Shown here: positions 14,432-49,775 of the stretch, one piece after another
Numbering within the stretch: the stretch's first letter is position 1
How the letters are laid out: each line of letters opens with the position of its first letter
DNA from: Straminergon stramineum
Lineage: Eukaryota > Streptophyta > Bryopsida > Hypnales > Calliergonaceae
Assembly (NCBI GenBank): GCA_963920665.1
Contig: OY987272.1
Coordinates: 1,307,001-1,371,000, forward strand
Length of the DNA: 64,000 nucleotides
Reading direction: 5' to 3'
Made by a program: the position numbers and the translations under genes
Notes under the pieces: generated by a model
Seen by the model: only the letters and a program-made list of their open reading frames with translations
What the model was told of the DNA's origin: nothing
Database searches by the model: none

Positions 14432-14729
14432 GAAGAATCACGAGTTTGTTTGTTTCTTGATTGAAGAGCATTTGTTTTGTGATTGGAGTTGAAGTCGAAG
14501 TTGAAGTCGAGCGAGTGATTTTAGCGGTGTGAAGAATCACGAGTTTGTTTGTTAATTTCTTGAACGAAGCCTATTATTTTGTTTTATGATTGGAGTTTCA
14601 AGTCGAAGTTAAGCGAGTGCTTTTAGCTGTGTTCAGTAAGAATCATGAGTTTGTTTGTTTCTTGATCGAAGCGCATCTGTTTTTTGATTGGAGTTTAAGT
14701 CGAAGTCGAGCGAGCGATATTAAGATAGT
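14432..14729 (+). repeat. Three tandem units in the SABATH leader
   Basis: Three consecutive units (14432-14530, 14531-14636, 14637-14729) of about 93-106 bp each start with GAATCACGAGTTTGTTTGTT or a close variant and contain 'gattggagtt' and 'gaagtcgagcgag'. The last unit ends ten bases before the start codon, so the repeats most likely form the 5' leader. Confidence 0.85.
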
Positions 14730-14738
14730 AAGTTCGAG

Positions 14739-16653
14739 ATGACAATCAAGCGGAGCTCCATGACGGAGGAGAAGGATATGACGAATGGCTTAGCAAAGGC
14801 GGTTTCGAAAATCGCCATTCCGGCGCGGTTCGACAGTTTCAAAGGGACAGTGTCGCCGGTAAGTACGACGGCGAGTCCCGTGACCGCGATTCTGCGCATG
14901 GAGGGCGGGGGCGACGCGAGCTACGTGAAATTCTCGTCCGGGCAGGCGAACATCAATGCGGAGCTCCGGCCGATGCTGGCGGACGCCATCCGGAAGTTCT
15001 CGAACTTTCCAGGCTCCGGGCCGATCCGCGTTGCGGATCTTGGCTGCTCCGTCGGCGCGAACGCCCTCGGATTCGCGGAGTGCATTACGAAGGCGGTGAG
15101 GGAGAAGTGCAAGGCGCTGTCGCGGCCGTGCCCGGAGGTTCAATACTATTTTTCTGACCTTCCGTCGAATGATTTCAACAACCTGTTCCAGTCGCTCGCT
15201 CCGCTTCTGTGTGGTGGCGACGTGGAGGACTGGAAGGTCGATAATGGTCATGTGCAGCCGAAGACGAGAAATTATTTCGCTGCCGCCGTGCCGGGCTCGT
15301 TTTATGATCGCTTGTTTCCGCAAGAGAGTCTTCACGTTGTTATGTCTGCGTGGTCCATGCATTGGCTTTCTCATGTAAGTGCTCCTATCATTGTCCCTCT
15401 TCGTGCCACTCCGATGTTCATTAACTTCGACAGTCGATATACTACAGAGTCAACTTTCCACATCATATTTTAAGATTGTCATTTATAATAGATATTTCGC
15501 CGAGGGGATCTGTTGTTGTGTGATGATATCCGAGTTGAGAATCTGCTGATACACATACACTAACTATCGTACTTCGAGCACCGATGAAACTTGACTTGAT
15601 TTGTCCTGTGTCTTGGAGTTTTTTTGGCGTTTGACGACTCTTGAGAATGATGCCATGCCACTCCTTGGGTTAATGCGAACTCGAATCAGCTGGAGAGAAG
15701 ACCATGTGTCCCGTAACTTTGTCAAAGGCTAAGTGCCGCGATTAATGGTGCTATAATCTAGGTGTCATTACTTCGTCAAATGCTTTTGAAGTGGTCCAAG
15801 TGGAAGTCCTGAATAGCGACAGTCGAGAACATTCAATGTTGAGCTGACGGTGTAATATTGCAGATTCCGGACTCTGTAACGGACAAGTCCTCCCCCTCAT
15901 ACAACAAGGGCAAGGTGTGGATAAACGAAGGGAATCCGCTTGTGGCAGAGGAGTATTCCAAGGTGTCGAAAGAGAATCTGAAATCCTTCTTCACCTATCG
16001 TGGGATGGAATTGGTATCTGGTGGCCTCCTATTCGTGATGATGATGAGCAGAAAAGATCCTAACAGGAAGGAGATTCAGTTCGGTCAACCCTTGGGGACA
16101 AGTTCACCTATCAGCGGCATGTTCGAGCTTGCCTGGAACGACCTGGTTACGGAGGTTTGTGAGACTTGCATCTATCAATGGTACTGTCGACTAGTATTTG
16201 GAATGTTTTGGATTTGACCATATTAGCTTAGTGCCGCAAGGATGATTGATGATTTGAGCTTTTTGTGTGCAGGGTGTGATAGACGAAGAAACGCGAGACT
16301 CTTTCAACATGCCAATCTACTGCCCGAGCGCGGACGAGATCAAGGAGGTCATAGACGAGACGTCGGCATTTCGCATCAAGAAGATGGAAATATGGGAAGA
16401 CATTGATTTTCTCCCTCGCGAATTGGCCGCCAAATTGGTGATGGATCCGGAGAAGTGGGGTGCCATGGCGATGAACATGGCCAGGACCATGATGCTTACG
16501 CTTGTGGAAACTCATGTTGGTCCTGACATTGCGGCGATTCTCTGGGACCGCCTCGAGAAACAAGTAGTTAACCACTGTAGAAGAACCAAGACTGTTTTCT
16601 GTGGAAACTCACCCGGGTGTAATGTCGCCTTAGCTGTCCTTGTCAAGAACTAG
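14739..16653 (+). CDS. SABATH-family carboxyl methyltransferase
   Basis: Three exons are predicted: 14739-15374, 15864-16154 and 16273-16653, all joined in phase 0, giving 435 residues (the family is usually 360-400; the excess is a roughly 50-residue N-terminal extension). SABATH enzymes transfer a methyl group from S-adenosylmethionine to a carboxyl (or ring nitrogen) of small acids such as salicylate, jasmonate, IAA or cinnamate, in the cytosol. Visible family marks are the SYxxxSxxQ substrate/SAM loop (residues 61-69), the SAM site VADLGCSVGANAL (98-110), SDLPSNDFNNLF (139-150), VPGSFYDRLFP (184-194) and SMHWLSH (206-212). The conserved Asn of the first loop is Phe here, so the substrate cannot be guessed. 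Exon 1 is much more GC-rich than the introns. The first Met is chosen because it opens the exon frame. Confidence 0.92.
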
Positions 16654-34775: not shown

Positions 34776-37700
34776 ATGACAGCGGTGAATGCATTTCAGC
34801 GGGTGGTGGACAAGCAGGCGAAGGTTTGGATGAGCTCGTTATGCACAGATTCTGATTGTAAGTCATAACCTTGCTGTGATTGTGAGGTTATTTTGAAACA
34901 GTTGAGGAGCTTTGAGATCTTTGGTAGTGTAGATTGTCGGTAAATTACCCAATTGTCGGTGGTTTGCTTTTGAACTAGTTCTCACCATTGCTGGTTCATC
35001 TCAAGATCGTGATGGAACGGCTTGCTCTGTGCAGTAGTCTGTTATTTTGCCCCGTTGTGTTTGATTTTCGAAATTTACTGTGAGAGTAGTCCAAAATGGC
35101 ATTACACACGGGTGTTGCAGGCTGAAGGATCTGGAATTGCGAGAGTTCGATTCTGGTAAGCTAGTACCATGAATCTTACGTTTTGCAACGTTGGCAGCGG
35201 ACCTCAGTTTCACCGCTTGTAGTGACATAGTGAAAGTTGTAGTTTGATTCAAAGAGTCATTAAATGAAATATCGAGAATATGTGTACGAGTAGGAGGCAC
35301 ATTTGAGCTTGTCATTGATATGACGAATATCATATTCAGTGGTAACGAGATTTGAGATATCAAGAACACAAGTCTTGGTAGTTTATCTAGCAATAAATAA
35401 TGAATCTGAGGAGCCTAATAACTAGTGTCGAGTTGAAGAGCAGCCGGCAATGATGATCTCTTTTCGAAGAGTACGGGCTTGTGTTCTCCCATCGAGAAGC
35501 TCTTAAATGTTGGCTTGTAGGTTTATATACTGAAGCAATGATAGAATCTAATGAATAATTGATACTAACCATGTGAACCGAAGGAGGTCATGTCTGTACC
35601 CGGTAGTTAAGAGTCCACTTGTGCTTCCTGCTCAGTATTGCAGGTTCAGGAGGAAGTTTTTATGCATATTTCTTTGAGAACGCAATAAGGAGTCGGTGCT
35701 TATTTGTTTTTGGTGCTCTCAACGTTCACCCACTTCCAACAAGAAAACAAGTGGACCTTTCATGACTTGAAGGAGCTTTCGAGAAGTGGGTGCAGATTAA
35801 GCACATGTCTTAGTCATGGCCTCGCGTATCTTGAAGACAACTTTGTCCAGGTTGTTTACGACTGAAGTTGGTAAGCCTCATGAGCCTTGAAAAATGTGGC
35901 AGAGAGTTTTCTGTTTGATTCTTGTTTGCATGGTTACTCCTGTGACATACATCGATTGGAGGATTTAATTGAAGCGTGCTTTCTTTCTACTCCTAATTCA
36001 GATATATTGTGTACCATATGTTTGTCTCTACAGCCTGACTTAACTTGACTTTGGCACAGTTGACTGACACGCATGCGTGGTGTTTGTTCACTTGCTTCAG
36101 TTGAAACCCCCGAGCTTTTCTTGAAGCTCACTAGAGAATGTATGGGGCAAGTGGATAGGCTGACCAGAAGTTCCACTGTGCTTAAGGTCAACCATGAGCA
36201 ATGTAAATATCTTGCTGACAAATTGAAGATGGCTGTTCAAAGCGCAGCCTCATTCTTAGAGCTCATCAGTGCATGGTACTCTCCATCCGTTTCAGCTGAG
36301 GACATGGTGCAGTCTCTGGAGATTTTCAAGTTGCTCCTTGCTTTGGGTAAGGAAGTTGAGAATTTAATCATTGGTTGTTGCAAAGATCCGTGGGTTCAAT
36401 CTGCGATCATGCTAACAAATGTGGCGGAGCACATTTTGTCCTTGGGTTTCAATTTGGAGTTGTGCTCGATCATCTTTTCTAACCGGAAGAAATTTGTAGC
36501 ACTACCAAGTGTGGAAGTTGCTCTTGTGAGGGACACTGAGGCTCAAATTGTCAAAGAGATGGCTAAACTGGATGAAACAAGGTTAGTTGCGGATGTGAGT
36601 TTCATGGTTGAGTCTAGCAGAACAAGCAGTATAGACTTACAGCTGGCTACATTTCTACGTGAAAGGTTGAAAAGCCCAAGGCAAATCCCCAATCCTGACT
36701 TGCTGGGATCAAACGAATCTGCTTATTTTGAGATTCTCGACCAGGGTCTAAATCAATTGCAGAAATTGGGCGGTGGTTCCTTTGGCACCGTGTTCAAAGC
36801 AACATGGTTGGGGGCTGATGTTGCCAAAAAGACTTTTCATGGGCCGAGTATTGAAGATTTGATCCAGGAGGTATCGATCTTAGAAGGATTGTGTCATCCC
36901 AATATTGTATCCTTGCTTTGGTATAGGAGGGATTTGCACAAATGTTACATCGTCATGGAACTGATGGACAGTGATCTTTCTACTCTCATCCAAGATAGAC
37001 TGGAAGGGTGTGCTGCGGATGATAATCCTTTCAGCATTTCCGAAGCGATGCACATCATCGCACAGGTGGCAGAAGGGGTTTATTTCCTCCACCAGAATAA
37101 GATTGTGCATAGAGATTTGAAATCGGGTAATATCCTGGTGAGACTTGTGAAAACGAAGGGAGTAGATGTTACCTGCATCCAGGTTAAGGTGGCAGATTTT
37201 GGGTTGTCGAGAACCAGGGAAAACAGCGCGACGGCTTCCAGTCTAACTCTAAACCGAGGTACCACGAGGTGGATGGCTCCGGAAATGATCAAACTCGCAA
37301 ATAACCATGATGAAATAGAGTTGTCAAAATGTGAGGAGCGTTTGCACTATCCATTCAAAGTTGATGTCTTCAGCTTTGGAATGTTGTGCTCCGAGGTTTT
37401 GAGCGGCAAAGTACCTTTTTCTTCCACTTCGAAGCCTAACGAAGTGAGAAGGAAGATACTGGCTGGTGATCGTCCACAATTACCAAATCAATGTCCGGAG
37501 GGCTTGAGGACTTTGATTAAGAAATGTTGGAACCCTGATCCCCGCCAACGCCCAAGTTTTGCTGACATCTGCGCGGAGTTGAGACATTTGCGATGCGGCT
37601 ATTTTATTACATGTTAGTATCTCCTTCTTTGGAACCTTGATTTCTTTTTCTTGTTTTGAGAATGCTCATTTATTCTCTGAGATATCCCGACTTTCTTTTT

Positions 37701-40700
37701 CTGAGTGTTCAAGTAAAGGAATATTTTTCAGCTGCGAATAGCCGCATGAATAGAAAGAGGTGTTTTCAACTGTTTGTCCTTTAAAATGAGTGTTCACTCC
37801 GGAGCAAGTGGTAGCGGATATAACTCTAATATATGCCAATTGTATCTGACTCGATTTGTGTTTCGCTTAGAAAATTTGATTGTGACGATTTATTTTGGAG
37901 TGTCATTGCTTCAGCTACATGGGCCAGAGCTCCTCGTTGCTTCAGTTTGGATGAGATCTGGAGAATGACAAACAAATTCAGAAAGGACAATTTGCTGAAT
38001 TGGAAAGCTCTCACTATGGTGTGTTATAAGTCTTTTTGGCTTTCTTGTATCGCATCGTGAAGTATGGTGGTGATAGATATCTTGCTCATGATGAAATCTA
38101 GTGGTTCAACTGAATAGTATCAGCATGGGTGGATAGGAATTGAATTGTGAAACTGCGCATAGTACTTGGCAACTCACCACAACTATTGTGAAAACATTCG
38201 ATATTTGACATGTGTGTGGATAGACAATTGGATAGCATTCATGACAACTGGTGATGTCTTTGGCAGGTATACAAGGGTGTTACAATTGACACAGGTGAGG
38301 CGGTTGCAGTAAAACGGATACTCGCAGAGAATTTTCAACACCTTGATGAGTTCAAGACTCAAATGGAGTTGTTAGCCGGCCTTCACCACAAGAATTTGGT
38401 GCGGACTGTGGGCTTTTGCTATGCGGTGGAGGAGGCTATACTTGTGTTCGAGTACATGCCAAATGATACCTTGGATACGTGGCTTTCTGGTTAGTCTGGG
38501 GTTAAGAAGAGGGATTTTCAGTAAACAAAAGTTACTTGAAAGCGTATGTTTTCATTAGTTATTAAATTGGTACTTTTCTTGACTGCTTAGTGATAGCTAA
38601 CTTTCAGTAGGGATTCTAACTTTCTGTTGGATGGATTTCACCAGAAGATGACCTGAATTTGACCTGGCCCGTACGCCGAAATATATGTCTGGGAGTGGCT
38701 AACGGCATTTATTATTTGCATTATCTGGCTCAACCAAGGATCATTCACCGCCACATAAGACGATGCAACGTAATGTTGGATCAGAATCTTGAGCCCAAAA
38801 TTGCAGGTTTGCAGTCAGCTTTATTATCTTGGAACACTATAAGCGAAATTCAGTCCCCACGACTGGGCGCCACCCCTCTGTAAGCTCTGTTCTATCATGT
38901 AGCGACTTCATGACTGAAGGTTTGATATGTAAGGATGAAGCAATCAATTAGTCATGTGGAACATTTGGTTTTCTGATGTCCGTCACTCTTTAGCTTGGAA
39001 TTGTGGTGTGTTGCGTTCTTTCTGGCATCTTCTGCCATCTTTGCAATCTTTGACATGTCAATTTTGGTCTGATCTATTGATGCTCGCATCAATCATGCAG
39101 AGGTTATTTAGCCCCCGAGTATGGAACTTCAGGAGAAGTATGTGAGAAAGTTGACGTCTACAGCTTTGGAGTCTTGCTTCTTGAGATTGTGAGTGGGAGA
39201 AGAAATTTCGACCCGAAGTTGCCTGAGGACCAGCGTGATCTTGGAGAGTGGGTAAGTTTCATTTGCATTCATGAATAACATGATTATTTTTGAAAATCAC
39301 TGTAATATTGGCTGATTTCTGGTTAAATATCCTAAGTACTTCAAGTTCGCCTTGTGTATCATCAGTAACTAACCAGGGAAGGTCTCTGTGATAATACTAG
39401 GCAAGGGAATTACACAGTCAAGGGAGTATAAAAGAGTTCATTGATCCAGCTCTTGACCTTCATGCAATCGAATGGACCGAGGCGTTGAGGACGATCCTGA
39501 TAGCCTTGCTGTGCATGCACACGGCAGTAGAGACACGACCGGAGATGAGCCTTGTGTTTGCGATGCTCCAAGGAAACCTGGATGAAGAGATATTGAGGCT
39601 GGGTCTTCAGTTTGACGAGGAGCTCTTTGGAATGTGTATTGATTCCTTTGGATCCTCTAGTGGAGACTTTGGGTCGTCGAGCCGCTGGAATTTGGATCAG
39701 TAAGTTATGTGTATAATCATGCAATTAAGGCTGCTGGATGAAGGGTTACAAAGTATGGTTGATGCTGAACGCTTGAACCCACGTAGATTTGAGCTTATTT
39801 CTATTGAATTAATGCGCTTATGCGAGTTCATATCGTAGTATCCAAGGTCGTCTCTAAGCTTTGGATTAACTCGGTGAGTGGGACGTTGGAGTAGTATCCT
39901 CTCTTGAATTAAAATGAAGTTTGAATATTGTGCTTTTGAAGTTTTCCCTTGTGTATGATTGGGTAGCATCATCAATTTTTCTGAAATCTGAAATCTGGCT
40001 GAAAAAGTTTTGAAAGGGCAGAAGGACGGCTGGCAGCAGAATGGTCTGCTGAACCGTCTGATTCAAGGGATAGCCCAGATTTGGAGAGAGAAGCGCAGAT
40101 CGGATTAGAATACCTGAGTTCAACGTCTTCACCAAAAATCCGGGAAGGTTTTTCTCATCTTATCAAGTGTGCATCCCGACCAGGTGGTCCGTCTGCAGTG
40201 TTGAGTGCAAATTACATTCTAGCCCCAGCGGCTCCGCCAGGTCTACCAATGGTTATAAAAGCCGTACCTGCAGCTCTAAAACTAGCAGGGGATACACAAT
40301 ATTCTAAGCTTGCGGTACGCACTCTTGTCAATGCATTTTTGTAGTTCTGAGTTACACCCTTATGTCTGTTTCGTGTTGGCAACAATGTTATGGGCACTGT
40401 AAGCATTGGAATGACAAGTAGATATTCGAAGTTGTTTCATGTGTGTCATTAAATGGACGAGAATCTTATACGAGCTCTGTTTCCTGGTGGATATCCATGT
40501 ATGACACGTTAATATATCTCTCTGCAGATGAAGTTAATGGTGGTCCTTACGTCTGATAAAGGAGTCGGGTCTGACGATAAAATCATTCTCGAAGTCTCTG
40601 ACGCGTTGGACGTCCTTATCTCGTTAATGAAGGGTGGGAGTCTTAACAGAATTTCTCTCCTAGCTGCTGAGACTGTTGGTAACATTTTGGTGAACAAACA

Positions 40701-43700
40701 GGTATTGCAAGTTCATTCAGTGTCATGATGCTTTGTTTTGTTGTCGAAATATATTTTTATAACTTCTACTTGCTAGGATCTGAGGGGTGTTGACTTGGCT
40801 GTTGCATCCTGGGATACCATGTCTAGGATTGAGCTGTACCTCACTCCATGCAATAAAATTTTGCTGTTCCACCATCTGACCCTCTACTCAGTCGAAGTAT
40901 CATTGTCGTGTAAGTCATTTTACGCCGCTGAAAATGTCACGTTTTGTTGCCATGCGCCAGGTTCGGAAGGCATTGTACAGCTATGACGGTTTTCTTCCCG
41001 TTTTGGGTGCATTTTGGAATTTGGATGCCTCGAGTGAGAGCATGAAGCATCTAGAAGGAGCGAATGATCTTGGTCTCAAAGTGTTGCAACGCCTGGCAAA
41101 GTGTTCCGAGAGCTCAGGCGATAAGGCTCAGTTGACTGTAGCAGCTTTGATAAAATTGTTGCGCAGAGGTGCGCATTTCCAAACCATATTCTGGTCTATT
41201 TGTCTGAGATTCTATACATTCTTCGATAATGACACCGTTGCAGAAATTTTTAGTGTTCAGAAGAAGATAAGTTGATGGCAATTGTGACATTGTAGAGAGA
41301 AACAGTGCCACTACTCGTAAATGAATGGGAGCATCTTCTGGGGGAATCCGGGCAGGGAGGATTTACCCCCTCATTGCCCCCGCTGTTTACCCCTGGCAGA
41401 GGAAAACACTGGAATTTTTGCCACCCATGATTAAATTTGGAAATTTTGAATTCATATTCGGAATCAGAGACCCCAAATTAACTAGGAGAGATGAAGAAAT
41501 ACAAAATTAATCAAGCTCAAAATAGGGGGCAATTTTTTATATTTAGCCTTGGCTTGGGCTATGAGGGGTCAATCCTCCCTGGCCGGGGGAGGCCATACTA
41601 CGGTAACCAAACGTGATTGCAACACGCATCTAAATGCGACACACTTCAGAATCTTGCTCAATAAACACATACTAATTTTGGAAACGTTAGTGCTTTTGTC
41701 AGTTTTACATCATCTACCAATAAAACTTTGAACTCTCATAAGATTTGCATATGTTATTTAATTATCCCATTATGTTGGTGTATTAAAATCCTCTTTGATT
41801 TGCTATCAAAAGTATTTTAGAATCTGTCCATTCTGAATGCAGAAACTATGCTCAGCGCTTAAGAGTGTCACAATTAGGTGTGGTTACCTTAATGTTCCAA
41901 GAAATTTCACGTACTCATTGAGTGCAAGTTGTGGTGTCAAGTACTGACCTTTGGTATTTGACCTGAAGGGCTCGGCGACACTGTCCTAAAGAATTTGGCG
42001 AAGGATACACTGGTTGCCTTGGACACTAAGGTCCTGGTGACGGACCGTCGCACTCCAACACTGGAGATCTCGTTGGAAGTTCGGAGGGAGTTGCTGGACC
42101 TTATGGTCACTGACGATCTCATTTCTCACACTACGATTCCTGGAAGGATGGCCATTCTGAGCTTGATGAACAAACTGTGTGACTCGTACAAAGAAGGTAT
42201 CACCGAAGGCTTGTTTTTGTACCTCTTGAAAATGATGAAAACGATTGTGCGCGAAGTCAAGCAGCTTCTGAATTTGGGGGAAAATGCGCAAAAAGTGAAT
42301 GATTTGAAGCAGATCCTGGATCTGGCTGTGAAGCTGTTTTGTCTTTTTGTGACTCGTGGAAAGGACACAGCGCAAGCTGTGCTCACCCAAAACGTTGCGG
42401 AGCGAAAATCTCTGGAAGTCATGTTGGAGGAGCAAAACCCAGGAATTCTGGATGAGTCTAAACTAGAGATTCTGGAGATTTTTTATAAGATTGACATGCC
42501 AAGCAGCAGTCCAGTTCGTACGGCTGTTGAAGAGCTTGCAGTTCTGGTCAAGATGGCTAAGTCCCCATCTCCAGGTTGTCGAGTGCAAGTAGCCAGCAGG
42601 TTGCTGAAATTCGTGAAGGAAAAGCTGGACGAAACTGAGATGGAAGAGGCAGGAGGCATAAATGCACTTATGGTTTGTCAATCAATCCTTGCTACTGTAT
42701 TTTCTTTGTGGGCAAATGAATTTTGTCACATTTGTTTTTTAATTTTTTTTCTACACTTTTATAATATGACAAAATGTTGTGAGCAAAACTAGCCTAATAG
42801 CCAGACTCTTGGTGGGTGCATTGGTTTGATAGGCACATTGTGCCAGGTTTGAATTCTTGAAGTATGTCATTGGTGGGATGAAATTTCATGAATTTCTGTC
42901 TTTTTCCTTTTTTAAATTAATTAGTGGGGAATTCTACCACGACCTACTGCACACACACTCATAATAGAGGAATGCTTTCTGTTCACAAATGTTAGGTCAT
43001 ATGCAATGGTTTCTTGTGGGTTGATTAATTCATCCAAGTTATACCCTCTCAAATTTGTACTGTTGGATGAATCAACGAAATATCCCAGTCATCTATTTTT
43101 GTTTCTACTTCCAAATTTGTATGTGAAGTAAAATCTATCTATCACTTCCTGCAGGATTTGTTGAATGACGAGGAAGTGGACTGCCAAAAAGATGCTCTGC
43201 TTGCATTGTATCGCTTATCTCCAAGTATTGCGATCCAGACGGAGGAGCTGCCTCTTAGGATCATTCTCGGTTTCCTTCATCCAAAGTGGCCAAGCGATGT
43301 AAGAGATGCAGCTTCTGGGTTTCTGGACTTGATGGTCAAAGAGAATGCATCAAGTGCCAAGAAGTTTATGAAGACACCAGCAGCATTGAAGTCTGTACTC
43401 CTTTGCTTAGACAGAGACGCTGAAAATCATAACTGTCAAAAATCTGTTTCTGCGCTGCTCATTATGGCAACAGAAGCGGACGACGATGTCCGCTTTGGAA
43501 TTGCCGGTGCTGGTCTGAGTATTCTTGTCAAATTTGTGCAAAGGCTTGGTACGATTGAACACAAGAATTTGCTGACTATCATGCTGGGTCTGCTTTGCAA
43601 AAGTGGGACTGACTGTGAGGTATGTATTTATTTGCAGTTGTGAGAATCTTTCTGTGCTAAAAAACGTCTGGATTCCTTTCTCAAGGTTGTTGAGACAGAT

Positions 43701-46700
43701 CCTCCATTCTAGACTCTTTTTAATCGACTCTACTGCAATTTTGGTGTTTTGCTATGTGCAGGAAGCGGTGACCAGAGCTGATGGTCACACCTTTCTTTTA
43801 ATATCTCTTCAAGAAAAAATTGCAATGGATGCAGCGGCACAAGGCTTGCTGAGTCTTTTAGACCATGCCCGGACTCGAGGCGATGTGCTAAAAGCTGGGT
43901 TTGTGGAAATAGCAATGGGAAGCATTGACCGGGAGAATGCCAGTACTGAAATGGCCCTTGGTTTGGCTAGCGTCAGCTCTACTCCTGATGGACTGGATCA
44001 GATCGTTGCTTGCTCTCGTAGCGTTGGAGCGCTGTTGATCCTTCTAGAGGGTTGTCCTACATTTGATGGGAAGGGAGCTGCTGCAGCAGTTATTGCAAAC
44101 TTGTACCCGCGGCTCAATTCCAATGAGGATTTAAGACGACAGAGCGAAATGACAGATGCCTGCTACCATTTGATCAAATATCTTGATCATAACGGCAGGT
44201 TACAACGCCAGGAGTTTTTGAAGGCTCTAGCAGCTTTTGCTACTGGAAAGAAGGGGCGGCAAATTATTCATGAAGAGCGGGGTCAAATACCTCTCATACG
44301 ATTTCTGAAGGATTGGGAAATTGACACTCAGGCAAGGGATTTTTCTCTTCATACTAGACCTTCCTTCAGAATACCCTTGTAGAGGCTGCTTAGTTAGCAA
44401 ATAATTATTTTTCAATTATTTTAATGAGTTTGTCTTGACCAAGAAGGGAGGATTCAAAACTGTCCACAGCGAGAACGTTCACAAGTCAGTTTATTCTTTC
44501 GTCTCGTTCTTGGTTTCCCATAATTTTCTCTCGAAAATATGGGTTTTTTTTGTCAAAAAGTGACTTATCTCACCCCATGTGTACATGTTTCAACCAAGAG
44601 AGGTTCTATTAATCGGTAGTTCCTGTCTATTCTGCAGCGTTAATCACAGGATCTTTTGTGCATATAGTAACACTTATTCGTCACTGGAGGTTTACTGAGA
44701 TAATTTTATTATTCAATTCATACATTTTTGGTAGTGATTATGTCATGGCATTAGTCACTGATACGCAATTTTGCAACAGGTGCGGGATCTGGTGCTGCAA
44801 ATTTTGGCGGAGATGAGTAGTGTCTTTCCAGATGGAGTTACGAATCGAGATTCCAGTTATCATAAGATCCTGAATGTGTTTTTGGACAACAGGATTGGTG
44901 TTTTGCTATGTGAGCTTCCCAGAAACGAAGAATTCTGGGAGAACAAGGAGAGTATGAAGAATATGCTTATTCTTATCAGAAACCTGAGCCTTGCTGGTCC
45001 GTTCCTCCTCCTCATCTTTTTTGCCGCTTTAAACCAGTGTTACGAGTTCCATTCAGTTCCGAAGTAGTCGACCATCCATGTGTCAAATAGGCATACACTC
45101 AGCAAGATTTCAGAATCCTTGCTAATAAGTTTAGTTTTTTTGTCATTTCATATACAGTATCTTTTATCGTGAAATACAACACTAAGGAATTAAGAGTCTT
45201 GAGGACCACATTACTTTTTTCTAATGGTTCAGTTTGTTAAATCCAAGCGATGAGAAGCAAGAAAGTACTGGTGCTTCATACGGTGAATCCATTTTTTAGT
45301 TGTGTGCTTTTCCAATTAATTTTGCTAATTGTTAAATACTTCAAGAGTAGGTGACTGCAAGAAAGACTGGTCTTATTTATCGTCCCCTTGTCTTTGGATG
45401 GGTGTTTTTTTGCTTAGAACTTTTGCATCATTTTTTTGTTTGGCATGAAATTTGAAATTAAGGTACATGCAATAGTTGCACACATTGAGTAATTTTTTAA
45501 GAATTTTAAAAATTAGTTTATTATTTCAAAATCGCCCCAATTGGATGTCTACATTGGTCATTTTGGAGGTTTTTAGTCCTATTTTTGACCCAAAAATGCA
45601 AATTTGAAGTCACAAATTGGACATGTTGGAGGTCTATTAATATTACAAGGACTAACAATGAGTTTTTATGAAAATAGTAACATGTTGATTGCACACATGG
45701 GGTCAAAGTGACCTTCCTTTGTGTGAAGGCTATGAAGAGGGAAAAAAAAATTTACATGAATTTTTTGATGCAATGCAAACTGAATCTTCTCTAGCAAAAT
45801 GGCTTTTTTGGAGAATTTTTTTTAATTACGAAAAATGAAAAAATTCACAAAACCCTATTCTGCTATTTTCTGCTCATAGTGGCTTCTAGAGTACCCCACA
45901 ACACCACAACAGACTCTAATACTTCATAGTACTACATAGTATCGAATCGACAGTTCAGATTTGCTAGCGCATTGACATACAATATTAATAGTTTTGCATA
46001 GTACTATCAGTCCAATGACCAAAAACTGCATTTTTGAATAAAAAACATGAAGTGTTTTTTTCAATCACCTGAGTATGAAAAAGGACCTAATTAGTTGCAA
46101 TTCTTATCTCTGTCCTTTGCACAAGATGAAGACTCCAATTGCTGTATTAATATTGTAAGAAGTTCTCCTTGTCGTGAATGGATTTGAAGACTTGCAAAAT
46201 GATTGTGCTAAGCTTAATGTGTTACTTTGTATTCAGGGCCAGCCACTCGTAGTCATCTATCCGATACTGGGGTTGTTAATCTGCTGCTGAAGGTGCTTTC
46301 AGATCACCGCAGTTCGTTGTCACCGGTGACTGAGCTTGCTGTTAAGGCACTCGTGAATTTAATGGATGATCCCGACGGTAAAAGAGCGATTCTCAGTGGA
46401 GGAATTGAATCTCTAGTCTCTATTTTAATGTTCGATTCCGAGTCGTCTGATATCAGGAATCTTACGATCATAATTCTGGTTAGTTTATCCTCACCACTGA
46501 TGCTCGTGTGAGGATCTAGAACCTTGTCTTCCTTCCTTTGCTTCCTGGTTTTTTGACCTTTGAATTTTTTTCTCTCTGGACTGAAAGGGGCATAGCATTT
46601 GCAAGAAGTTGTGAGAACTTATCCTTCAATTCTTCACTGTTCATGGTAACTAAAAACTAGATTCAGAAGTCTGACATTCATTGTGGAGAGCACATTTGGC

Positions 46701-47704
46701 ACATAGTAAGTGGCCAAAGCCTATCTTCTTCCAGTAGCTTTTGGTGCCTCCACCTGCGATGAGCTCAAGATTGTGTACGAAAAGAATCTAGAGTCCGTTT
46801 TCAAGGGTATGTTGAATAATTTCATACCGGTTGATATTAGCGACATACTCTTCACATTTTGTACATTTTCTTCTTGGCTTGTGGGAATACTGGGTTGTGT
46901 CCTGAGTTTTTCGTTAGAGACTTCCCAAAAATAAAATCATGATGTTCTTTTTTAATAATCTGGTTTTCTTTTGGATGTATTGGCACCTTTTAATGGGTTT
47001 GTTTGTCTCTGTAACGGGGAGCAGGCATCGGTCGCTCAAGATCCAAGAACCTCTAAAGTTGCTTGCGCTGCAATCTTTAAATGCAACATATTACAAGCTT
47101 TAAATAATATGATGTACGTTGGTGAGACGAGCAGTATCAAATTGCAAGCTGCAGTTTTGATGAAGCTATTGGTCACGAATGGGCCAACAAAGCAAGTATG
47201 TGCTGCTCTTTATGACGTCGGTGCTCTGGACGCTCTCATCTATTTGCGTGTTGAGAAAGACTGCGAGGAGGTAGGTCCTGCACCCGTGTCCTCCTTGCTA
47301 ATGCTAATTTTGTATCTTAGATCCTTTAATCTTTTAAGCAAATCAATTTTTATTCTCATGAATAGCTATTGCTCTAAATTTACACTCTTATAACTTCTTT
47401 ATCAGCGGAGAGGATGCATCCTCGTCAATGTTGGAATGGGATGATCGAAAGACTCTGAGTTGTCCAAGGCTTCGTTGCTTTTCATTCACTGTTACATACG
47501 AGTGTTAGTTTTTCGACTCACATGAAGTCTTATCATCGTAAGGATGATTTTGATTCCAAGGTGCCAAGACCCCAGTCTAAAGATTGTTATGCTGACGCTC
47601 TGTGCTTTCTCTGACAGATTGCAAATGAAGTCCTGAAATTTGTGAGAGGGAAAAATAGTGATTGCAGAAAATACATCGACGAGAGGTCAAAGAAATCGAA
47701 ATAA
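34776..47704 (+). CDS. Tandem kinase-pseudokinase-ARM repeat protein (fusion gene model)
   Basis: Seventeen exons are predicted: 34776-34857, 36101-37612, 37915-38018, 38267-38489, 38645-38879, 39101-39251, 39401-39699, 40017-40314, 40528-40701, 40961-41168, 41969-42672, 43155-43619, 43762-44331, 44780-44996, 46237-46478, 47025-47270, 47618-47704. All junction phases match and the sum is 5817 nt, 1938 residues. Order: helical bundle (1-230, resembling the HeLo/MCAfunc-type N-termini of plant TKL kinases), active-looking TKL kinase (248-526), RLK/Pelle pseudokinase (about 540-840), ARM-like repeats (about 869-1938). No signal peptide or membrane segment is seen, so it is likely cytosolic. A signalling scaffold or immune sensor role is inference. 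The weakest links are exon 1, the junction 37612/37915 and the acceptor at 40016. Alternatively there are two or three adjacent genes; the module entries below stand in either case. Confidence 0.6.
36101..37612 (+). other. Module 1: helical bundle plus intact TKL protein kinase
   Basis: This single long exon encodes about 504 residues. The first about 200 are alpha-helical with [16 protein letters not shown], like the N-terminal bundles of moss and other plant TKL kinases and MLKL-like proteins. The kinase keeps GGGSFGTV (251-258 in the fused numbering), the VAxK lysine 271, alpha-C Glu 284, HRDLKSGN with Asp366, DFG with Asp393, and GTTRWMAPE. It is therefore predicted to be catalytically competent. 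If the intron at 37613 is retained, translation stops at TAG 37615-37617 to give a separate single-kinase protein; an ATG at 36073 offers an alternative start. Confidence 0.9.
37915..39699 (+). other. Module 2: RLK/Pelle-type pseudokinase
   Basis: Five exons encode a receptor-like-kinase-type domain that opens with the juxtamembrane phrase [13 protein letters not shown] and has no ectodomain. The ATP loop, normally GxGxFGxV, reads NWKALTMV at the same spacing before YKG. The alpha-C Glu is Gln (FKTQMELL), the HRD Asp is His (HRHIRRCN, residue 677), and DFG is GLQ (695-697). The VAVK lysine (582), the catalytic-loop Asn (682), APE and DVYSFG remain. ATP binding and catalysis are therefore predicted lost while the fold is kept. 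Confidence 0.85.
41351..41584. mobile_element. MITE, family G (copy 2), inside an intron
   Basis: Ends GGCAGGGAGGATTTACCCCC and the inverted AATCCTCCCTGGCC bracket 234 bp in the intron 41169-41968. The interior matches the copy at 8719-8956 ('aattttgaattcatatt', 'gagaccccaaat'). Confidence 0.78.
44332..44779 (+). other. GC-AG intron in the ARM module
   Basis: The upstream exon ends CACTCAG and the intron starts GCAAGG, with acceptor TTGCAACAG before GTGCGGGATC. The phase is 0 on both sides. A later GT donor at 44382 would shift the next exon into an early stop, so the GC donor is preferred. CAG|GCAAG is the consensus of plant GC-AG introns. Confidence 0.65.
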
Positions 47705-49775
47705 TCCAGTATGCTTGGATGTTTTCATCATCTGAACATCATCATTCCCTCCCAAAACATTTAGACTTCCATCTGAGGACTTGGGCAAACAGAAGCGGAA
47801 TCAATCCTCCAGCTGTGGACCTCTCAACCAGAAGCAGGATTCATTTCCAGTTAGGTGTACAAAAAAAGCAGAGCATTTGCTGCAGGATCAGCCCCACATA
47901 CTCAGAGAAGGCATGTGCAGTTCAGTTCAGTGATTCTGCTTTTTACGTTGAAGATCATGAAGGTGACACTGAAGGTGATACTGTCAAAACGCTCGCCCGT
48001 GGTTTGCAATGCTCCCACAGTATCCTGCAAAGGGAAGAGGAAAGCATATTAGAGTTTTCCTCAAAGTCATTCAAAGTGGGGGTGCTCACGTTGTTCATTG
48101 AAAACTAGGGGTGAATGTGATGAATAATTTGCTGAATTTGTGTTGCCAAGCCTTTTTTTAGCGGTTTAATCGCAAATCTAAAATAGCACCAACTCTAATG
48201 CCAAGTCTGGTTTTCAATGTAACCCTACCGGTATCATTAGCTAGTCTGTCATTCCTTTGCACTGCCTCATAACCATTTCATTCCGGTCCTTCGTTGCAGC
48301 GAGAGAGACTGTTTGCTGATCAAGGATGGTATTATTTGCAGATAGTTTACTATTTGCGTCACTTTAAGCGTGTCTGTAGGCGTGTGATGCCGGGGAGATG
48401 AATAGAGCTGTGAAGAGATCCCTCTGGGGACACGAGCGAATCTGTTGGGATCAAATTTTTATCACAATATATGAATTTGAAAGCTATTTTTTTGCCAAAC
48501 ATGAGTCTGACTAAGTTATGCTCAGGCTTCAGTTTGTTAGTATCTTCTAGATATAATCTGCATCGTGTGCTTGCAAATTGTGATGTCAAGCTCAAACTGA
48601 AAGGTATCAATAGAGGAAATCAGGAAAGTAACTATGTCGATTAAGCACCTCTAGGTAGCTGCTAATTCTAAAGTTTGCTGTTCCGTCTCTGCTAAACAAA
48701 ATCACAGTGAAAGTACACCCTTTTGTCAAAATACTGCACTCCCCTGCACTAGACAGTTAGTTATCTCTTATTCGTTGATGTCCTTGATTGGTTGCTGTTT
48801 TGTGTAAGAATTAATCACCAAATTCATGGGAAATTTTGTTACAATGGTAGCATTTCCTTCTTTGATTGTAAGGTACAGACCTGATGGGAGCCACTAACAA
48901 TGCGAGCAAGATGAACAGGGCACAAAAGTCATGCCCGTATCCACAATCCGAGCAAAGGCCCGTGGAGCTAGCTGGGTGAGCCGATGTACTGTACACCGTG
49001 GTTGTGTAGTAGCTAGAGGACGGTCAAAACCCTAACCCTTGGTTAACGCTACATCGTGGATCCAATTCTCATGAGAGTTTCAGTACCAAATGATCGTAAT
49101 CTGAAAGCAATCTTCAAATTGAAATGAAGCACAGAAGAGTTACCTATGACAGGCAAGGTCATTTGACAATTTGGTGCGCACATCAATCGTTCCGTTGTTC
49201 GACGTGGAAACTAAGGCTCTTGTACTGGTACTAATACCAAAGATGTTTGTATTCATTGTCAAATGTGGCTGGGTTCTGGTGATTTCAAAAGGGTTGATAC
49301 TAAGTTAGTGTAAGTTAACGGTCTGTATTCTGAATGGAAAGAAGCTGAAACTTGCAAAGTGGCTATGTTACTCCATAATTCACTCCCTGCACTCCAACAT
49401 GAAGTCTCTTCCTGAGGTCGATCTGTGTGACTTCCTCCAATTGCTCAATCAATCAAACTTCCGAAAACTTTGATTGGAGTACAATACAATTTCTAGCAAT
49501 TCACAACAAAATTTGCAACAAAGTTCAGATGGGCTTATAGCTACAGTAGATATCTGTTGATATTTGTTGATATCTAGTGACACTGACATTCAACCCAAAG
49601 AGGAATGGGTGTGTCTTAGGAGTCCAACCAACTTGGCTGATTTTGGTCATGGCCACCCAAGTGGCAATTATCACGGGATGGAATACTAGGCCATATTTTG
49701 TACAGATGTCTAAGTTTACACAAGTGTAGAACAATTGTGATTCACGGCCTTCAACTGCAGAGGAGAAATGCATAT
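47705..49775. other. Downstream of the kinase-ARM gene; one weak minus-strand exon candidate
   Basis: No gene is firmly supported. A 148-codon plus frame (47662-48108) is the out-of-frame 3' region of the preceding gene. On the minus strand, 49012-48881 could be an exon (acceptor TCTAG, donor CAG|GTCTGT) encoding CGYGHDFCALFILLALLV with a Ser/Thr/Tyr-rich lead; I do not recognise the family. Confidence 0.3.

Follow-up and report, generated by a model that had tools for sequence, protein, structure and literature searches.

Does one moss gene encode an N-terminal helical bundle, two kinase domains and an ARM scaffold in a single protein, or does the locus hold neighbouring genes that have been read as one? 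The question arises in a 64,000-nucleotide stretch of DNA from Straminergon stramineum (the window; positions 1307001-1371000 of contig C10 in a genome of 326 Mb and 59 contigs), where an earlier note had joined a TKL kinase, an RLK-type pseudokinase and an ARM scaffold of about 1070 residues in one gene model. Rebuilding the gene independently from its splice sites, we recovered the identical span on the forward strand (34776-47704), exon count (17) and length (5817 nt), encoding 1938 aa, with compatible phases at 16 of 16 junctions and the terminal stop as the only one. Because the model is 56% identical to Ceratodon protein P0001 (845 alignment columns) and 47% identical to P0002 (1384 columns), the 17-exon observation exceeds what chance would give, and it is confirmed as real. 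One gene is our best reading of the locus. The sequence itself shows which kinase and ARM domains are present and in what order, that the introns at their junctions have homologues, and that a first kinase (K1) with intact catalytic motifs stands before a second (K2) with degenerate ones.

The two joins

If the locus instead held two or three neighbouring genes, a stand-alone MLKL-like kinase would end at TAG 37617 and a K2-ARM gene would start at ATG 37833 or further in. K1 ends with exon 2 at 37612, followed by the donor CAT|GTTAGT at 37613, and K2 begins behind a linker in exon 3 (37915-38018). The possible K1 stop (TAG 37615-37617) lies only 297 bp from exon 3, within an intron of 302 bp, in agreement with the earlier claim of a gap under 300 bp. 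In all five inspected paralogues on contig C8 (A, B1, B2, D1 and D2) the kinase ends at the consensus donor T|GTAAGT, the string by which these donors were located; the window donor is homologous to it, the paralogue tails (LMTCK, LLTCK, LLTCK, LWRCK and LQICK, respectively) aligning with FITC in the window. Moreover, paralogue A runs on into K2: its following exon starts SVGVKVPRYFSSKEIRKMTNEF and aligns with exon 3 in identical phase, the K1-K2 intron thus being common to both in position and phase. Downstream inspection of the paralogue A locus found no ARM part.

The second join runs from exon 7 (39401-39699), which encodes the C-lobe and tail of K2 and has the donor TCA|GTAAGT, to exon 8 (40017-40314; linker and first ARM exon), with phase 2 on either side. 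A phase-2 intron at the aligned residue also leads into the ARM region of a locus on contig C5, there from a U-box-like exon. As had been claimed, the first ARM exon lacks an initiating codon, the earliest in-frame ATG (40249) lying within it.

Two Ceratodon proteins each cover part of the model. P0001 (1496 aa; N-terminal domain, K1, K2 and partial ARM) matches residues 23-856 at 56% and then a C-terminal ARM part at 44%, and is annotated as fused across K1-K2; P0002 (1363 aa) matches residues 599-1938 at 47%, comprising part of K2 and the ARM region. Neither protein covers the whole model. In the searches with the full-length and ARM proteins, scoring was confined to those candidates with the most words in common, and P0001 and P0002 were not among the ARM search matches listed. 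Together with the shared junction introns, this coverage supports the single joined gene that had been predicted.

Several details weigh against that reading. Neither Ceratodon model is complete, and the annotation of P0002 lacks K1; the GTTAGT donor after K1 is a weak point, poorer than the paralogue donors; K2 might have a gene to itself that begins at the in-frame ATG 37833, which directly follows a stop at 37827; and the exon 8 acceptor is pyrimidine-poor (0.35). Set against the donor homology in the paralogues, the continuation of paralogue A and the fusion in P0001, these points leave separate genes unlikely. The same donor might also mark alternative retention of intron 2, such that one locus would yield two products, the long fusion and a short MLKL-like kinase with GYFITC at its end. 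The immediate in-frame stop, the exon-2 frame open up to 37614 and the departure from GTAAGT fit retention, but GTTAGT recurs in this model as the donor of introns 4 and 15, and we consider retention possible though rather doubtful.

An 18-exon version of the single gene (1978 aa) that included 40777-40896 (120 nt, phase-compatible) was discarded because this stretch is missing from Ceratodon P0002, which joins exon 9 straight to exon 10. The stretch, open between these two exons, is perhaps a cassette exon and more likely intron. Of the 17 exons kept, exon 1 (34776-34857; ATG, residues 1-27 at the start of the N-terminal domain, donor ATT|GTAAGT) is the least supported, the Ceratodon match beginning only at residue 23.

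A probably MLKL-like kinase unit followed by a pseudokinase

The first part of exon 2 (36101-36723, up to residue 235) encodes the predicted N-terminal helical bundle and brace, and the remainder (36724-37612) encodes K1. The TKL assignment of K1, as noted earlier, and its intact motifs are borne out by the Pfam match at residues 245-521 and by the motif table; for the kinase domains of the 1978-aa version, PK_Tyr_Ser-Thr scored 276.8 bits over two stretches. The two PDB sequences that best match the N-terminal half, and to which the K1 kinase domain is nearest, are Arabidopsis MLKLs: 6ka4 (AtMLKL3) and 6lba, which we take to be AtMLKL2. The bundle is collinear with AtMLKL at a weak 7.8 bits, and in a structure comparison AtMLKL3 alone among the 50 structures listed aligned over bundle and kinase together (406 residues, low-confidence model). 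In a tree of 12 bundle-kinase sequences, the window clusters with Ceratodon P0042 and P0001 (support 0.97).

On these sequence matches and the predicted model, bundle and K1 look plant-MLKL-like. AlphaFold2 (AF2) gave weak models both for the exon-2 protein and for the N-terminal domain alone: Foldseek returned only kinases among the best 50 matches listed for the former and nothing at E 0.001 for the weak model of the latter. Speaking against an N-terminal four-helix bundle of the HeLo/DUF1221 type, VIA-align found generic helical bundles for the model of the N-terminal domain, and a bundle-only profile had no credible match among PDB sequences. The helical bundle claimed in the earlier note may be an MLKL-like four-helix bundle with a brace.

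K2 occupies the end of exon 3 and exons 4 to 7, with the N-lobe in exon 4 (38267-38489), a degenerate catalytic-loop region with DFG replaced in exon 5 (38645-38879) and the APE region in exon 6 (39101-39251). Its best PDB relatives are 2qkw (a plant "Protein kinase", presumably Pto; 163 bits) and BAK1 (159 bits), and the RLK-like part scanned alone with Pfam scored 110.2 bits. The glycine loop is replaced, and the motifs read HRHIRRCN and AGLQ; the corresponding Ceratodon motifs are HRNINASN and TGFR in P0001 and HGHLRPSN, without DFG, in P0002. Judged by these relatives and degenerate motifs, K2 is an RLK-derived pseudokinase, as had been proposed. Elsewhere in the genome, clustered RLK exons at C6:8.25-8.61 Mb share 39-47% identity with K2, and at C8:21253415-21253624 a piece of 70 residues shares 61%; both are possible relatives of the K2 source.

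Several known systems share parts of this arrangement. Plant MLKLs have the order of bundle, brace and kinase that is predicted for the window gene, but AtMLKLs are pseudokinases, whereas K1 keeps its motifs and K2 and the ARM region follow it in the window gene. Retained kinase residues are also described for wheat Pm13, an MLKL catalytic variant, in the available part of the source (PMC10951266). Tandem kinase proteins such as WTK1/Yr15 likewise place a kinase before a pseudokinase, and the predicted window protein contains such a tandem, as the 2018 definition asks; however, the 92 tandem kinase proteins of 2018 are without additional conserved domains, as far as the available text of that study goes (PMC6170490), while the window gene pairs TKL with RLK, has an N-terminal bundle ahead and carries an ARM region behind. 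An extra fused domain also occurs in Lr9 (PMC10260399; apparently vWA, from the heading WTK6-vWA in the available excerpt). Thus, "a tandem kinase as in WTK1", the earlier description, holds for the kinase and pseudokinase but is incomplete, because the N-terminal half looks MLKL-like and the kinases come from the TKL and RLK families; two extra domains are present, and the ARM part is related to U-box proteins.

A kinase fusion protein, in the portion of the defining source at hand, joins a kinase that seems functional to another domain, which may be a further kinase (PMC10951266), and the predicted window gene has this structure. It is a new variant among kinase fusion proteins. No kinase-ARM fusion of this kind was found among the best-ranked literature matches (the first 1-20 of up to 882 papers), which did not include a 2025 plant-wide tandem-kinase survey. 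The earlier statement that no such protein had been described agrees with the literature searched, but P0001 and P0002 do have public database entries, under labels such as hypothetical protein or generic kinase.

The ARM scaffold and a probable gene conversion

The ARM region continues from exon 8 through exons 9 (40528-40701), 10 (40961-41168), 11 (41969-42672), 12 (43155-43619), 13 (43762-44331), 14 (44780-44996), 15 (46237-46478), 16 (47025-47270) and 17 (47618-47704; TAA stop). Exon 13 has a GC donor, and the following intron (44332-44779) is GC-AG (CAG|GCAAGG), with GTAAGG at the homologous site of a paralogue on contig C7. Pfam Arm scored 24.9 bits against a cut-off of 20.6, for a single repeat only, in the 1978-aa version; this match and the phase-2 entry shared with the C5 ARM gene uphold the predicted ARM scaffold. 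The ARM part is 49-51% identical to Ceratodon P0041 and P0040 (51% for P0040). Searched against its own genome, it gave 28 matches, which fall in the window, at C7:15.937-15.944 Mb, at C5:8.222-8.229 Mb and in a broken piece on contig C1. That piece (L022/L013, C1:30087021-30087806) has nine stops in the match, 57% protein identity, and 79% DNA identity to window positions 41857-42676.

The C5 locus resembles P0040 from its N-terminus through a U-box-like stretch to the end, and the C7 locus resembles P0041, which is without that stretch. The P0040 U-box scored 18.3 bits, under the Pfam cut-off of 21.4; no U-box was found in the C5 piece (Pfam, E 0.01) or in the 1978-aa window version (E 0.1). 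The sequence relationships suggest that the scaffold is related to U-box-type ARM proteins, with the difference from plant U-box ARM proteins that the kinases occupy the place of the U-box at the same phase-2 intron. Rice Ptr, like the window protein, has ARM repeats without a U-box, and is an ARM resistance protein in the text available from its report (PMC5966436).

A putative gene conversion stretch covers 41856-45349 on the forward strand, which is 92.3% identical, introns included, to C7:15938639-15942134; weaker C7 matches follow at 46071-46815 (83%) and 46887-48246 (81%). Exons 8-10 have no nucleotide match to C7, and within exons 9 and 10 some segments are 72-73% identical to C5. At the protein level, exons 8-10 are closer to P0040 (60%) and P0002 (54%) than to P0041 (37%), whereas P0041 is the top scorer for all four blocks of exons 11-15, though for exon 11 by a single bit, and P0040 for exons 16-17. 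The C7 locus itself is closest to P0041 in seven of eight blocks, including three that precede the shared stretch, with P0040 best for exons 16-17. From these block affinities, the 3' half of the ARM region was probably overwritten by gene conversion from C7, with the window as the recipient.

Replacement of the 3' half by a C7 copy could also be a sign of decay, the fusion being no longer functional. Consistent with this, dN/dS (nonsynonymous to synonymous rates) between window and C7 is 0.78 for exons 11-14 and 0.85 for exons 15-17, and exons 11, 12 and 14 (94.6-95.4%) are less similar to C7 than the aligned bases of introns 11-13 (96.5-96.9%), with exon 13 (97.7%) slightly above. However, all 1938 codons are free of internal stops and phases are kept. 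For 156 random substitutions in exons 11-17, 3.9-4.6 stops would be expected and none is observed (P 0.007-0.021); for 83 substitutions, the expectation is 2.2 (P 0.09). We therefore consider decay very unlikely.

The bundle-kinase family and a proposed function

Across the genome the bundle query found 54 matches, of which two are the window's own, and ten further loci were inspected downstream (B1, B2, D1, D2, A and L034-L038). Among these, paralogue A carries K2, and ARM-like repeats were seen by eye behind B1, B2, D1 and D2; D2, the only one tested for ARM_PUB, scored 47.2 (cut-off 33), the D1 kinase frame is broken and the B2 ARM stretch is spread over several frames. L035 (C1:22.635 Mb) continues in one open frame into a TKL pseudokinase-like domain (IPHMNLTPRK), L038 (C2:20.25 Mb) is followed about 0.3 kb on by WD40 exon(s), perhaps of a separate gene, and nothing was recognised by eye within about 3 kb downstream of L034, L036 and L037. 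In Ceratodon P0046, a WRKY domain precedes the unit.

Moss kinase-NLRs (Pkn-NLR, presumably also PRK-NBS-LRR) likewise start with a helical domain, which can be aligned with that of the window gene, and have a kinase behind it, but there NB-ARC follows. The window protein is not an NLR by the NB-ARC definition, none being found in the 1978-aa version (Pfam, E 0.1). Four kinase-NLR N-termini were found (L039-L042, at C7:22.516 Mb and C8:8.949, 2.871 and 8.984 Mb), three of which were compared, their helical domain aligning with the MLKL-like domain of the window. For the one at C7:22.516 Mb, which has NB-ARC after the kinase (129.7 bits), hhalign with ten bundle and three NLR sequences gave probability 46%, E 2e-4 and score 34.4, against 17.3 for the best of 20 column-shuffled controls. 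The L039 and L041 kinases read HLDLKPDN and DYG, and two kinase-NLRs sit on a long branch of the bundle-kinase tree. When the 54 bundle matches were compared with the 126 NB-ARC places that were scored (of 361 first-look candidates), no pair was closer than 20 kb, the nearest being 89 kb apart.

These loci suggest that moss bundle-kinase units have been joined repeatedly to different C-terminal parts: PUB-type ARM, a TKL pseudokinase, perhaps WD40 and, in a distant unit, NB-ARC. More tentatively, the MLKL-like bundle-kinase may be a general moss immune executor, joined repeatedly to NB-ARC, RLK and TKL pseudokinases, two kinds of ARM and perhaps WD40 and WRKY, with kinase-NLRs and MLKL-like kinases sharing one ancestor and the window gene, its ARM part exchanged by gene conversion, the most elaborate form seen.

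For the window gene, we infer an immune role, that of a sensor. The explanation that we favour, by a small balance of probability, is one gene for a 1938-aa bundle-K1-K2-ARM protein that would act as bait, switch and executor, in a family gaining C-terminal parts. The protein would probably be cytoplasmic. The ARM scaffold and K2 may serve as a regulatory platform or as bait, to which a pathogen effector or a guarded host protein would bind; once displaced, they would release or activate K1, which could phosphorylate partners or the brace. The freed bundle might then, in the manner of HeLo-type domains, oligomerise at a membrane and cause cell death or Ca2+ influx. AtMLKLs act in immunity, according to the accessible part of their report (PMC9950082), and the kinase of a Physcomitrium patens kinase-NLR gave a modest, variable response in N. 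benthamiana, in the available text (PMC11218826).

That the gene encodes a fused scaffold for signalling outside immunity, such as in abiotic stress or development, is a less probable alternative that we nonetheless take seriously. ARM repeats and RLK kinases serve many roles in plants, but the MLKL-like unit, the size and clustering of the bundle family, the changing C-terminal parts and the gene conversion all resemble immune gene families. If the immune-sensor reading is true, the gene would represent a plant immune sensor of novel layout, in which a kinase of the cell-death type is combined with an inactive receptor-like kinase and a protein-binding scaffold. It would directly link kinase fusion proteins with MLKL-like cell-death kinases and kinase-type NLRs in an early-branching group of land plants. 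It would also suggest that ARM scaffolds of the U-box type have been recruited as bait platforms, like NLR integrated domains, and sensor, switch and executor could be tested as pieces of one gene.

Elsewhere in the window, an open frame at 30065-30475 matches no Pfam family at E 0.01 and presumably resembles the N-terminus of a FAHD1-type hydrolase. A SABATH-type carboxyl methyltransferase gene lies at 14724-16653, where two open frames match Pfam Methyltransf_7, one at 136.1 bits and the other at 67.7 bits.

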